Source of the DNA: Planktosalinus lacus
GTDB taxonomy: Bacteria > Bacteroidota > Bacteroidia > Flavobacteriales > Flavobacteriaceae
Direction: 5' to 3'
Length of the DNA: 64,000 nucleotides
Assembly: GCF_014640155.1 (NCBI RefSeq)
Contig: NZ_BMGK01000002.1
Coordinates: 258,589 to 322,588 of the forward strand
Position 1 is the stretch's first letter, and every line of letters starts with the position of its first letter. Shown in pieces: positions 21,269 through 53,781 of the stretch. Below the pieces are notes generated by a model, which made no database searches, was not told the origin of the DNA, and saw only the letters and a list, made by a program, of their open reading frames with translations. The translations under genes were made by a program, and so were the position numbers.

Positions 21269-21288
21269 AGGCGCAAGATTTTGCGCCT
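21269..21288 (-). repeat. isolated REP-type palindrome (AGGCGCAA/TTGCGCCT)
   Basis: An 8-bp perfect inverted repeat with loop GATT, 21269-21276 with 21281-21288. The same core and loop occur in the palindromes around the transposase-like gene at 51.5-52.2 kb. It sits between the FemAB-like start and the GlmU-like stop, 30 kb away from the other copies, as expected for a mobilised REP element. Confidence 0.75.
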
Positions 21289-49099: not shown

Positions 49100-51500
49100 A
49101 CGTAGAATTAACAAAGTAGCCGTCATCGGCTCCGGAATTATGGGAAGCGGTATTGCACTGCACTTTGCCAATATTGGCGTGGAAGTGCTCTTGCTTGACA
49201 TTGTTCCGCGGGAACTGAATGACACCGAACAGAAAAAAGGACTGACCCTTGAAGACAAAGCCGTGCGCAACCGCATCGTGAACGAGTCGCTGCAAAGCGC
49301 TGTCAAATCAAAACCGTCACCGGTGTACCACAAGAGTTTTGTAAACCGCATCACCACCGGTAACCTGGAAGACGATATTGCCAAAGTCAAAAATGTAGAT
49401 TGGATCATAGAAGTGGTCATAGAGCGCCTGGACATCAAAAAGCAAGTATTTGACAATCTTGAAAAACACCGCACACCGGGCACACTCATCACTTCAAACA
49501 CTTCAGGTATTCCCATCAAGTTTATGAATGAAGGCCGAAGCGAAGACTTCAGAAAGCACTTCTGCGGAACCCACTTTTTCAATCCGCCGCGCTATCTGAA
49601 ACTTTTTGAAATCATTCCGGGGCCGGACACTTCTCAGGAAGTACTGGACTTCTTAAATGAATACGGTGAAAAGTTCCTGGGAAAAACCTCGGTACTTGCC
49701 AAAGATACCCCCGCCTTTATCGGAAACCGTGTCGGGATTTTCGGAATCCAGAGCCTTTTTCACCAGGTAAAAGAAATGGGACTCACCGTTACTGAAGTAG
49801 ATAAACTTACAGGACCGGTCATCGGCCGCCCTAAATCGGCAACCTTCAGAACCGTTGATGTGGTTGGACTGGATACGCTGGTGCACGTAGCCAACGGTAT
49901 CTATGAAAATTGCCCAAACGACGAAGCCCACGACCTCTTTAAATTACCTGATTTCATAGAAAAAATGGTTGAAAACAAATGGCTGGGAAGCAAAACCGGT
50001 CAGGGATTCTACAAAAAAATTAAAAATGATGACGGCAGCAGCGAAATCAAAGAATTAAACCTCAACACGCTGGAATACCAGTCAACCAAAAAAGCAAACT
50101 TCGCTACCCTCGAAAAAACCAAAACCATCGACAAGCCCATTGATCGTTTTCCGGTATTGGTGGACGGTGATGACAAGGCAGGCGAATTCTACCGCAAGAA
50201 CTTTGCAGGTATGTTTGCCTATGTATCCAACCGCATCCCTGAAATTTCAGACGAGCTCTACAAAATAGATGACGCGATGAAAGCCGGTTTCGGCTGGGAA
50301 AACGGTCCGTTTGAAATCTGGGACTCCATAGGCGTTGAAAAAGGACTTGAGCTCATTAAAGCCGAAGGCCTTCAGGCAGCAGACTGGGTAAACGAAATGC
50401 TGGCTTCAGGTAATAAAACATTTTACACTGTAAAAGATGGAGCTACCTATTATTATGATATCCCATCAAAAAAACAAACCAAAGTCCCCGGTCAGGACGC
50501 CTTTATTATCCTGAACAACATCCGCGAAAGCAAAAAAGTATGGAGCAACAAAGAAGCGTCCATACAAGATTTGGGTGATGGCATCATCAACCTGGAGTTC
50601 AACTCTAAGATGAACACCATTGGTGAAGGCGTGCTCGCCGGAATCAATAAAGCCATAGACCTGGCTGAAAAAGAATACAACGGACTCGTGATTGGCAATC
50701 AGGCATCCAATTTCTCTGTGGGTGCCAACATCGGGATGATTTTTATGATGGCTGCAGAGCAGGAATATGACGAACTCAATATGGCCATTAAATACTTCCA
50801 GGATACCATAATGCGGGTGCGCTACTCCTCCATTCCGGTCATCGTCGCTCCCCACGGGATGTCCCTGGGTGGTGCCTGTGAGATGAGTATGCACGCTGAT
50901 AAAGTGGTAGCTGCCGCCGAAACGTATATCGGCCTGGTGGAATTTGGCGTGGGGGTGATCCCCGGAGGTGCCGGTTCCAAAGAAATGACCGTGCGCGCCG
51001 CAGACACCTTCAAAAAAGACGATGTGGAACTAAACGTATTGCGTGAATACTTCCTGACCATTGGTATGGCGAAGGTAGCTACATCAGCTTACGAAGCCTA
51101 TGACCTCGGCATCCTTCAAAAAGGAAAAGACGTCGTAGTTGTCAACAAAGACCGCCAGCTCGCTGAAGCGAAAAAACACGCCCTGTTACTTGCAGAAGCC
51201 GGTTATACCAAGCCTATCGAAAGAACCGACATCAAAGTACTGGGCAAACAAGCCCTGGGAATGTTCCTCGTGGGAACAGACCAGATGGTCGCCGGGAATT
51301 ACATCAGCGAGCATGACAGAAAAATCGCCGACAAACTCGCTTATGTCATGGCAGGTGGAGACCTTTCAGAAGCAACACTGGTGAGCGAACGCTACCTCCT
51401 CGACCTGGAACGCGAAGCCTTCCTGTCACTCTGTACCGAAAGAAAAACACTGGAACGCATACAGCATATGCTGAAGACGGGGAAACCCTTACGCAACTAG
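49092..51500 (+). CDS. fadN: 3-hydroxyacyl-CoA dehydrogenase / enoyl-CoA hydratase fusion (FadN type)
   Basis: 802 residues. Dehydrogenase domain first: NAD loop AVIGSGIMGSGIALHFA, catalytic His region CGTHFFNPPRYLKLFEI. Two C-terminal dehydrogenase helices follow, then the hydratase/isomerase domain from about residue 490: NFSVGANIGM (oxyanion), GMSLGGACEM (Glu) and GLVEFGVGVIPGGAG (Glu). This order is the reverse of E. coli FadB and the same as Bacillus FadN. It does steps 2 and 3 of beta-oxidation. Its partners are the thiolase at 52214 and the acyl-CoA dehydrogenase at 53842. Confidence 0.93.
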   Translation: MSKRRINKVAVIGSGIMGSGIALHFANIGVEVLLLDIVPRELNDTEQKKGLTLEDKAVRNRIVNESLQSAVKSKPSPVYHKSFVNRITTGNLEDDIAKVKNVDWIIEVVIERLDIKKQVFDNLEKHRTPGTLITSNTSGIPIKFMNEGRSEDFRKHFCGTHFFNPPRYLKLFEIIPGPDTSQEVLDFLNEYGEKFLGKTSVLAKDTPAFIGNRVGIFGIQSLFHQVKEMGLTVTEVDKLTGPVIGRPKSATFRTVDVVGLDTLVHVANGIYENCPNDEAHDLFKLPDFIEKMVENKWLGSKTGQGFYKKIKNDDGSSEIKELNLNTLEYQSTKKANFATLEKTKTIDKPIDRFPVLVDGDDKAGEFYRKNFAGMFAYVSNRIPEISDELYKIDDAMKAGFGWENGPFEIWDSIGVEKGLELIKAEGLQAADWVNEMLASGNKTFYTVKDGATYYYDIPSKKQTKVPGQDAFIILNNIRESKKVWSNKEASIQDLGDGIINLEFNSKMNTIGEGVLAGINKAIDLAEKEYNGLVIGNQASNFSVGANIGMIFMMAAEQEYDELNMAIKYFQDTIMRVRYSSIPVIVAPHGMSLGGACEMSMHADKVVAAAETYIGLVEFGVGVIPGGAGSKEMTVRAADTFKKDDVELNVLREYFLTIGMAKVATSAYEAYDLGILQKGKDVVVVNKDRQLAEAKKHALLLAEAGYTKPIERTDIKVLGKQALGMFLVGTDQMVAGNYISEHDRKIADKLAYVMAGGDLSEATLVSERYLLDLEREAFLSLCTERKTLERIQHMLKTGKPLRN

Positions 51501-51503
51501 TAA

Positions 51504-51523
51504 AGTCGCAAGGTGTTGCGACT
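51504..51523. repeat. REP-type palindrome 1 (AGTCGCAA/TTGCGACT)
   Basis: Eight-bp inverted repeat, loop GGTG, starting 4 bp after the fadN stop, with GTAAA before and TCAA after, as in the other copies. Confidence 0.75.
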
Positions 51524-51532
51524 CAAAAGTAA

Positions 51533-51552
51533 AGGCGTAAGATTTTACGCCT
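51533..51552. repeat. REP-type palindrome 2 (AGGCGTAA/TTACGCCT)
   Basis: Eight-bp inverted repeat, loop GATT, 12 bp before the transposase start; flanks GTAAA and TCAA. Confidence 0.8.
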
Positions 51553-51563
51553 CAAGAGTAAAG

Positions 51564-52118
51564 ATGAACAAAAAACACAAAGGAAAATACCGCCCAGACA
51601 CCACCAGAGCCAAATGGTGGGACTACGGAAACAACGGAGCTTACTTTGTTACAATAAATGCATATAAACGCAAACACTACTTTGGAGTAATCAAAAAAGG
51701 AGAAATGATACTGTCAGAAATCGGAAATATCGCAAAAAACTGCTGGTTAGAAATACCGGAGCACTTTCCTTACGTTGACCTTGGAGCGTTCGTTGTGATG
51801 CCTGACCATGTACATGGTGTCATCATAATCAACAAGCCAAGACACGAAAAAGATGACTATCTCATATCCCGCCCCTCAGTAAAGGCGCAAGATTTTGCGC
51901 CTCACTTTGCGCCCCCGAACAACACCTTCGGCCCCCAATCTAAAAATCTTGCATCCATAGTCAGAGGCTTAAAGGTAGGAGTCACTAAAAACGCTCGGAA
52001 AATAGACCCAAACTTTGCATGGCAAAGCCGATATCACGACCATATCATAAAAAACGAAATCGAACATAACCATATAGAATCATACATCATCAACAACCCA
52101 AAAAACTGGGAAGCGTAA
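51564..52118 (+). CDS. REP-associated tyrosine transposase (RAYT, Y1/HUH type)
   Basis: 184 residues from the ATG at 51564; a longer reading starts in the palindromes and was rejected. The HUH motif is MPDHVHGVIII, the N-terminal strand is YFVTINAYKRKHYFG, and the catalytic Tyr is in WQSRYHDHIIKNEIEHN. This is the IS200-like family that acts on REP palindromes. It has REP copies on both sides, and one (51883-51902) lies inside the gene, encoding VKAQDFAPH in frame. It interrupts the fadN-fadA-fadE order. The stop (52116-52118) overlaps the GTAAA head of the next REP. Confidence 0.9.
   Translation: MNKKHKGKYRPDTTRAKWWDYGNNGAYFVTINAYKRKHYFGVIKKGEMILSEIGNIAKNCWLEIPEHFPYVDLGAFVVMPDHVHGVIIINKPRHEKDDYLISRPSVKAQDFAPHFAPPNNTFGPQSKNLASIVRGLKVGVTKNARKIDPNFAWQSRYHDHIIKNEIEHNHIESYIINNPKNWEA
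51883..51902. repeat. REP-type palindrome 3, inside the transposase coding sequence
   Basis: AGGCGCAA / TTGCGCCT with loop GATT, including the head GTAAA and tail TCA. It is read in frame as VKAQDFAPH. A half site (TTTGCGCC) follows directly at 51906-51913. Confidence 0.85.
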
Positions 52119-52138
52119 AGGCGCAACATATTGCGCCT
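52119..52138. repeat. REP-type palindrome 4 (AGGCGCAA/TTGCGCCT)
   Basis: Loop CATA; head GTAAA overlaps the transposase stop codon, tail TCAA follows. Confidence 0.85.
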
Positions 52139-52161
52139 CAAACAAAACAACAACAGTAAAA

Positions 52162-52181
52162 AGGCGCAATATTTTGCGCCT
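52162..52181. repeat. REP-type palindrome 5 (AGGCGCAA/TTGCGCCT)
   Basis: Loop TATT; preceded by GTAAAA, followed by TCAACC, 33 bp before the thiolase gene. Confidence 0.85.
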
Positions 52182-52213
52182 CAACCAAAGAAAGAAGAAA
52201 AAAAGAACACAAT

Positions 52214-53407
52214 ATGAAAAAAACAGCTTATATAGTATCCGCTTACCGAACCGCCGTGGGCAAAGCACCTCGCGGACTCTTTCGCTTTAAGCGACCTGAC
52301 GAACTCGCAGCAGAAACCATCCGGTTTATGATGGACAAACTGCCGCAACTGGATAAAACACGCATCGACGACGTTATCGTGGGCAACGCCATGCCTGAAG
52401 CCGAACAAGGCCTCAATATGGGACGACTTATCTCCCTGATGGGATTGGATACCGTAGACGTTCCCGGGATGACCGTCAACCGTTACTGTGCCTCCGGACT
52501 GGAAACCATTGCTACCGCGACGGCAAAAATCCAAAACGGTATGGCCGATTGCATCATCGCCGGTGGCGCAGAGAGCATGAGTTACATTCCAATGGGCGGA
52601 TATAAACCCGTTCCTGACTATAAAGTCGCTAAAGAAGGCAATGAGGATTACTATTGGGGTATGGGACTCACAGCCGAGGCGGTTGCTGAAAAGTACAAGG
52701 TCTCCCGTGAGGATCAGGACGAATTTGCTTTTAACTCACACCAAAAAGCACTAAAAGCACAGGCCGAAAACCGCTTTAAAGACCAGATTGTTCCCATCGA
52801 GATCGAACACACCTTTGTCAATGCCAAAGGTAAAAAGGAAACAAAAAACTACACCGTAGAACAGGACGAAGGCCCAAGAGCCGATACTAACAAGGAAGCT
52901 TTAGCAAGGCTGCGACCCGTGTTCGCCGAAGGCGGAAGCGTCACTGCCGGAAACTCCTCACAAATGAGTGACGGCGCCGCTTTTGCAATCGTTATGAGTG
53001 AAGAAATGGTCAAGGAACTCAACCTGGAGCCCATCGCCCGCCTAGTGAGCTATGCCGCCGTGGGTGTGGAACCCCGCATCATGGGCATCGGTCCTGTGAA
53101 GGCCATTCCAAAAGCTCTTGCTCTAGCCGGACTCAAACAAGATGACCTTTCGTTAATCGAACTCAACGAAGCCTTTGCTTCGCAATCGCTGGCGGTCATT
53201 CGTGAACTGGGTTTAAACCAGGACATCGTAAACGTCAATGGCGGCGCCATCGCCCTGGGCCACCCACTGGGATGCACGGGAGGAAAATTAAGCGTTCAAC
53301 TCTTTGACGAAATGCGCAAACGCGATCTAAACAGGAAATATGGCATGGTGACGATGTGTGTGGGAACCGGGCAGGGAGCGGCCGGGGTTTATGAATTCCT
53401 GAAATAG
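52214..53407 (+). CDS. fadA: acetyl-CoA C-acyltransferase (3-ketoacyl-CoA thiolase)
   Basis: 397 residues, full length. The nucleophilic Cys is in RYCASGLETIATA (about residue 95), the His in GGAIALGHPLGCTGGK, and the second Cys in MCVGTGQGAAG. It cleaves 3-ketoacyl-CoA in the last step of the beta-oxidation cycle. Expected to be transcribed with fadN and fadE, but 714 bp containing the REP/transposase cluster lies between fadN and this gene, so a secondary promoter may be needed. Confidence 0.95.
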   Translation: MKKTAYIVSAYRTAVGKAPRGLFRFKRPDELAAETIRFMMDKLPQLDKTRIDDVIVGNAMPEAEQGLNMGRLISLMGLDTVDVPGMTVNRYCASGLETIATATAKIQNGMADCIIAGGAESMSYIPMGGYKPVPDYKVAKEGNEDYYWGMGLTAEAVAEKYKVSREDQDEFAFNSHQKALKAQAENRFKDQIVPIEIEHTFVNAKGKKETKNYTVEQDEGPRADTNKEALARLRPVFAEGGSVTAGNSSQMSDGAAFAIVMSEEMVKELNLEPIARLVSYAAVGVEPRIMGIGPVKAIPKALALAGLKQDDLSLIELNEAFASQSLAVIRELGLNQDIVNVNGGAIALGHPLGCTGGKLSVQLFDEMRKRDLNRKYGMVTMCVGTGQGAAGVYEFLK

Positions 53408-53421
53408 AAAAGAGAGAAGAG

Positions 53422-53781
53422 ATGAAACGCTTACGCCATAATTATAAGAATTTAAAAATTTGGCAATTGGGGTTGGAAATAGCAAATGATGTTTCAGACT
53501 TATTAGTTGAATTTCCAAAACACGAAAAGTATGATTTGAGTTCTCAGATGAGTTCCAGCTCCGTTTCAATACCCAGCAATGTAGCTGAGGGCTTTTCAAG
53601 GACGAATAAGTCATTTAGTCACTTTCTCGATATAGCATTAGGTTCATCATTTGAACTTGGCACGCAACTTTTAGTAGCAAAACACAGAAAATATATTAAT
53701 CAAACACAACTTGAAATCTTAGAAAACAAAATTGAAGAGTTTCAGAAGATGACTATGGGCTTTCAAAATAAATTGAATTGA
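53422..53781 (+). CDS. four-helix bundle protein (S23/rRNA-intervening-sequence family)
   Basis: 119 residues. YKNLKIWQLGLEIANDVSDLL, SSQMSSSSVSIPSNVAEGF and HFLDIALGSSFELGTQL are the hallmarks of the family, called S23 or 23S rRNA intervening-sequence protein, related to Avd of diversity-generating systems. It forms a pentamer in solved relatives and binds nucleic acid; its role is unknown. It sits between fadA and fadE, and no reverse transcriptase or rRNA gene is near, so this copy is free-standing. Often found inserted singly in Bacteroidota genomes. Confidence 0.9.
   Translation: MKRLRHNYKNLKIWQLGLEIANDVSDLLVEFPKHEKYDLSSQMSSSSVSIPSNVAEGFSRTNKSFSHFLDIALGSSFELGTQLLVAKHRKYINQTQLEILENKIEEFQKMTMGFQNKLN

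Follow-up and report, generated by a model that had tools for sequence, protein, structure and literature searches.

A putative recognition hairpin carried in frame within a RAYT gene of Planktosalinus lacus looks maintained or renewed as DNA

In-frame REPs within tnpA_REP (RAYT) genes have been described for subclass 2.4, generally between the HuH motif and the catalytic Y (Quentin et al. 2018, BMC Genomics 19:475, PMC6006769). In its sections on this subclass, that study presents in-gene REPs as predominant in, and unique to, subclass 2.4 and judges them to have little impact on activity; as background, it also mentions effects of REPs on the stability and translation of mRNA elsewhere. The intragenic GTAG/CGTC REPs, including the Rickettsia RPE, are likewise short palindromes that are read in frame as protein, and they are regarded as tolerated because they fall in linkers (Di Nocera et al. 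2013, PMC3733652). Those elements reside in unrelated host genes, whereas the REP described here lies in the gene of its own presumed transposase. The E. coli RAYT-REP complex (4ER8; Corneloup et al. 2021, PMC8266576) shares with the present case the fold and the hairpin-plus-tetranucleotide type of substrate; the relevant parts of Corneloup et al. concern other RAYT groups and contain no mention of in-gene REPs. The gene reported here is a further case of the in-frame REP already published for subclass 2.4. An excess over the flanks, a comparison with synonymous sites and single-copy cases do not appear in the sections of Quentin et al. that treat in-gene REPs, and a search of the open-access literature returned no report, in the text retrieved, of maintenance or autoregulation by in-gene REPs of RAYTs.

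The window, that is, the whole 64,000-nucleotide stretch of P. lacus DNA analysed, contains a RAYT gene flanked by a fadB-like gene on one side and a fadA-like gene on the other. Within the gene the following features were located:

51564 to 52118, forward strand: RAYT (TnpA_REP) coding sequence of 184 amino acids, from the open reading frame and from profile and fold matches
51807 to 51815, forward strand: HUH motif H82-V83-H84, with H82 and H84 as invariant columns
51846 to 51929, forward strand: predicted disordered loop, residues ~95-122, running from the HUH strand to the next helix and containing the REP (AlphaFold pLDDT)
51883 to 51902, forward strand: in-gene REP palindrome AGGCGCAAGATTTTGCGCCT, built as AGGCGCAA-GATT-TTGCGCCT (exact match)
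52083 to 52085, forward strand: catalytic Tyr174, in YIINNP, an invariant column

H82/H84 and Y174 are invariant across an alignment of 24 relatives (alignment A1), which together give the single-domain HUH-Y1 signature, and both motifs are intact, as the earlier note had stated from the sequence. The protein matches the NCBIfam model NF047646 (REP_Tyr_transpos) with an E value of 1.9e-14 and 53.7 bits, below the curated cut-off of 80 bits; this model appears tuned to gammaproteobacterial RAYTs, and 58/149 genomes exceed the cut-off. A Pfam search of the protein gave no match at E 0.001. The top Foldseek match of the predicted fold (E 2.7e-6) is 4er8, the structure of the E. coli RAYT in complex with a REP hairpin, and 4er8 is also the sole PDB match at E 0.01 of a profile built from the 24 relatives (E 2.3e-7). 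The AlphaFold model has a mean pLDDT of 81, with values over 90 for most of the core and below 50 for residues 95-110 and 114-122; the REP-coded residues 106-114 lie in that stretch.

Compared with subclass 2.4 (Bertels group 4), the window gene shares the HUH-Y1 RAYT organization, the WQ and YIxNNP motifs (here WQ and YIINNP), a variable insertion that follows the HUH strand and precedes the next helix (here residues ~95-122, predicted disordered), REPs in both flanks and in frame (here at 51883-51902), and Bacteroidetes among the hosts. It differs in two respects from the subclass as described by Quentin et al.: its HUH motif reads DHVH rather than the consensus NH[IFV]H, and its REPs carry a GTAA foot and a TCA end rather than the double foot GTAG...CTAC. 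A relative with 56% identity (L015) has NHVH at the HUH position. The gene is best described as a RAYT resembling TnpA_REP subclass 2.4, situated in a REPtron between fadB and fadA.

The in-gene REP consists of two 8-bp arms around a GATT loop, preceded by a 5' GTAA foot at 51879-51882 and followed by a 3' TCA. Read from the ATG at 51564, it is translated GTA AAG GCG CAA GAT TTT GCG CCT CAC, or VKAQDFAPH, residues 106-114, which places the peptide between the HUH motif and the catalytic Tyr in a predicted disordered loop and bears out both the reading frame and the position originally proposed for it. The gene is bracketed by two further REPs on each side, and a sixth site lies far from the locus:

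51504 to 51523, forward strand: upstream REP 1, AGTCGCAAGGTGTTGCGACT, whose GTAA foot shares its first base with the end of the fadB stop codon
51533 to 51552, forward strand: upstream REP 2, AGGCGTAAGATTTTACGCCT, with a compensated C-G to T-A change relative to the in-gene copy
52119 to 52138, forward strand: downstream REP 1, AGGCGCAACATATTGCGCCT, whose GTAA foot is the source of the RAYT TAA stop codon
52162 to 52181, forward strand: downstream REP 2, AGGCGCAATATTTTGCGCCT (pattern match)
21269 to 21288, forward strand: distant REP, matching the in-gene palindrome at 20/20 positions

All five REPs at the RAYT locus are oriented like the gene and share the layout of GTAA foot, stem and 3' TCA, in agreement with the likeness to the intergenic copies that had been noticed earlier. 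At up to 3 mismatches the window holds 6 REP sites against 0.16 expected, a number reached in 0/100 shuffles. The 2.97-Mb genome holds 11 sites at up to 2 mismatches, compared with 0 for a reversed-pattern control, and 5/11 are located at the RAYT locus; 1/11 (L014, AGGCGCAAGGCATTTCTCCT) is not a clean palindrome. Apart from this imperfect site, none of the off-locus copies in the genome is clearly intragenic, and some overlap weak open reading frames. A second, distant RAYT of the same genome (L002, G000:C2:113069-113410) has no palindrome between HUH and Tyr.

The genus was compared at the fadB-fadA junction in five genomes: the window's genome and G829 have the REP-RAYT unit there, G263 and G828 have another small open reading frame, and G042 has neither. 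Within the genus this junction (51500-52214, L267, L269, L270) is a hot spot of insertion. The small open reading frame seen in two of the five genomes is four-helix-bundle-like and is bracketed by GTATTAAGTATTAAGAC / GTCTTAATACTTAATAC repeats, so that it may be mobile too. In the window, a 119-aa open reading frame directly after fadA (53422-53781) presumably resembles four-helix-bundle (IVP-like) proteins. The nearest relative of the window gene, L044, comes from a public record with the same arrangement and shares 86% identity over 3.4 kb. L044 and the window have the same in-gene REP, whereas all four flanking copies of L044 are altered or broken, a suggestive contrast that comes from a single sequence comparison at a fourfold divergence of only 0.07.

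The in-gene REP is not peculiar to the window gene, since L044 and most other relatives have their own REP in the loop. We surveyed 231 loci from several searches, which yielded 185 distinct intact open reading frames with HUH and Tyr after removal of matches without HUH (17), without Tyr (21), with unknown letters (6) or duplicated (10). The search of the phylum, with a match in 174/395 genomes, contributed the best-scoring matches listed. A perfect stem of at least 9 bp occurs between HUH and Tyr in 129/185 genes, compared with 3.65 expected by synonymous resampling, and a stem of at least 8 bp in 147/185, compared with 8.25; only 6/185 have a palindrome in the preceding N-terminal part. By search set, stems of at least 8 bp were found in 17/23, 24/30, 17/23, 29/39, 34/37 and 25/31 genes and in 1/2 of the window's genome, and occupancy does not fall with match rank. 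In flanking 270-nt windows the palindrome is present at 46/180 loci upstream and 50/180 downstream, and in far windows at 2/177 and 7/180. Considering the 175 loci with both flanks, 68 have the palindrome in the gene alone; 93 loci have it in the gene and not upstream, against 13 with the opposite pattern (P 4.5e-16). In a control set of gammaproteobacterial RAYTs (24/30 loci parsed), 1/24 has it in the gene, 6 upstream and 2 downstream, and the in-gene difference between 129/185 and 1/24 is significant (Fisher P 3.3e-10).

The in-gene REP is nevertheless not essential: no 8-bp stem is present in 38/185 intact genes, of which 9 have at least 9 stem pairs interrupted by 1-2 mismatches and others have no such stem, and clean absences occur. 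The near-identical genes L122 and L136 differ by a clean 60-nt in-frame block that holds the REP and is absent in L136, where the REP must therefore be dispensable. Several relatives show further features of the same region. L047 and L067 have a tandem pair of REPs within the loop; L017, L024, L051 and L052 have a second REP-like in-frame insertion elsewhere, before HUH, coding for VETQFIAS-like peptides; and the loop of L024, L192, L037 and L041 holds simple amino-acid repeats (a long Gln run, VAPNNA, TLGEP), which indicates that it expands by other means too. L056, from a record titled Glaciecola amylolytica (a gammaproteobacterium), is a RAYT of mostly Bacteroidota type and reflects either a transfer or a mislabelled record.

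Searches of four complete genomes found no, or almost no, such element besides the in-gene REP. The single 3.5-Mb contig of G241 holds no further copy of its in-gene palindrome; G254 has two copies, the other of which lies in the flank and departs from the in-gene one at three stem pairs, always with both arms altered. G201 and G368 each contain one exact double-foot element as counted with a generic double-foot pattern, which misses elements with altered feet; that of G201 sits at the in-gene place, and that of G368 must do so as well because L194 holds it.

At the level of the encoded peptide there is little constancy. The reading phases of the in-gene elements (n=147), in the order 2.0, 0.0, 2.5, 0.5, 1.0, 1.5, number 85, 36, 20, 4, 1 and 1; phase 1.0, in which the TAG of GTAG would be read as a codon, is hardly used (1/147). 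Depending on the phase, one and the same place encodes unrelated peptides, and the peptides coded at the REP site differ among relatives (VETQNFASL, GRDAMHCVST, VGVQNFEPL). The earlier note had taken a segment present throughout the family with unrelated DNA as counting against its proposal; the reverse was seen, with peptides that vary and DNA palindromes that persist. We regard it as hardly credible that the nine residues are what functions and the DNA symmetry is incidental: the segment is always translated in frame, as a functional peptide would be, but this reading is contradicted by the unrelated peptides of the different phases and by the 129 palindromes observed where synonymous resampling predicts so few.

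At the DNA level, a GT[AG]G foot adjoins the 5' arm in 90/147 in-gene elements, compared with 72/2232 background windows. A match of at least 90% to the flanks of the same locus was found for 46/147 in-gene elements against 1.3 expected from other loci, and for the other 101/147 no flanking match reached 90% within 700 bp. In 33 disjoint pairs chosen for a fourfold divergence of at least 0.3, the REP core has a median divergence of 0.10 versus 0.56 at fourfold sites (P 4.8e-6) and is identical in 9/33; over 40 pairs, REP identity is 0.857 versus 0.705 for the adjacent loop DNA (P 0.006). The divergence is two-humped: some in-gene REPs are conserved and others have been exchanged completely (L140/L179). 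Two-sided, still-paired stem changes outnumber one-sided changes by 15:2, 47:5 and 96:11 in disjoint sister pairs, counts that presuppose an 8-bp stem in both genes and serve as support only, and some of the two-arm pairs (L140/L179) look like wholesale REP replacement rather than stepwise compensation. In the planctomycete pairs L062/L065 and L070/L073 (records named Scalindua and Brocadiaceae), the inner stem has switched on both arms at the same place, and in L062/L065 the downstream REP has switched too, with the TTCAA type flanking L062 and the CGAAT type flanking L065. On the tree, presence and absence require 32 changes, compared with 35.0 (30-38) in shuffles, showing no phylogenetic signal; this points to rapid gain and loss, which is as compatible with a hot spot of insertion as with selection. 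Phase (37 changes, shuffles 49-61) and stem class (84 changes, shuffles 121-131) are both partly inherited. In-gene stems also appeared more perfect than flank stems (75/96 vs 41/68, P 0.0019), a comparison that we set aside as unsafe because, by a reversed-sequence control, about 11 flank elements are at chance level.

Taken together, the excess over the flanks, the free peptide and the low REP divergence indicate that the in-gene hairpin looks maintained or renewed as DNA and not merely tolerated, and the hairpin is probably a recognition site of the RAYT. Our main reading, to which we give a probability of about 0.52, is that the palindrome is a copy of the cognate REP of the RAYT itself, kept as a putative recognition site. 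The enzyme would bind the hairpin when the gene is single-stranded, and the hairpin would be kept by selection or renewed through RAYT-driven insertion or conversion, so that the transposase gene would carry its own substrate; cis-mobilisation, feedback repression and linkage of the REP to the RAYT are candidate uses of such binding. For the window gene itself a caveat applies, as its own in-gene stem is only 8 bp long. The earlier note had proposed that the element inserted into its own mobiliser and was tolerated. The predicted disorder of the loop and the in-frame block of L122/L136 support this proposal. The insertion is not a one-off event.

Pure tolerance, in which REPs made by the RAYT land anywhere and those that keep the frame in the disordered loop survive with little effect, corresponds to the published view of subclass 2.4 (Quentin et al. 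2018), whose authors judge the impact on activity to be small; we consider it possible, though rather unlikely. It would explain the position in a predicted disordered loop, the clean presence and absence in L122/L136, the fast turnover on the tree and the similar REPs at other loops in a few genes (those 6/185 with one in the N-terminal part). However, the flanks should be easier targets, yet they have fewer REPs than the 129/185 genes do. Simple tolerance does not on its own account for the palindrome being commoner in the gene than in either flank; moreover, in-gene REPs are conserved where more than half of the synonymous sites have changed, and G241 has no other copy found from which its REP could be renewed. 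The present counts point to maintenance at the DNA level where Quentin et al. infer little impact. Much of the pattern could also be explained by a hot spot of insertion at which the REP is steadily renewed.

A second suggestion of the earlier note, regulation at the mRNA level, found no specific support. A hairpin in the transcript that stalls ribosomes, alters decay or binds the RAYT would be in keeping with the effects on mRNA stability and translation that Quentin et al. (PMC6006769) mention for REPs elsewhere, and the transcript strand can indeed fold the hairpin (z -2.62 for RNA, 51850-51935). The DNA fold of the same segment is stronger, however (z -4.22), imperfect in-gene stems show no RNA-type excess of G.T over A.C pairs (9 vs 6), and the hairpin is distant from both ends of the reading frame, all of which makes control through the mRNA improbable. 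The symmetry might also be a product of mutation. Template switching during replication can keep palindromes perfect without selection, and the surplus of two-arm over one-arm changes in sister pairs is what it would produce. Such a process would keep the arms complementary but would not slow their change, as seen in the REP relative to fourfold sites, and the feet are also kept; we therefore disfavour it as very improbable.

More tentatively, and going beyond the site itself, the in-gene REP may be a conserved part of the gene at the DNA level, a self-carried putative recognition site through which the RAYT acts on its own locus, with gene and substrate moving and co-evolving as a unit. If this is true, the flanking REPs would be the more dispensable copies, which bears on what RAYTs do with REPs and on why single-copy RAYT genes persist. 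Each RAYT gene with its substrate embedded and kept at the DNA level would name its own cognate hairpin, and the family would offer hundreds of enzyme-substrate pairs for tests of recognition and co-evolution.
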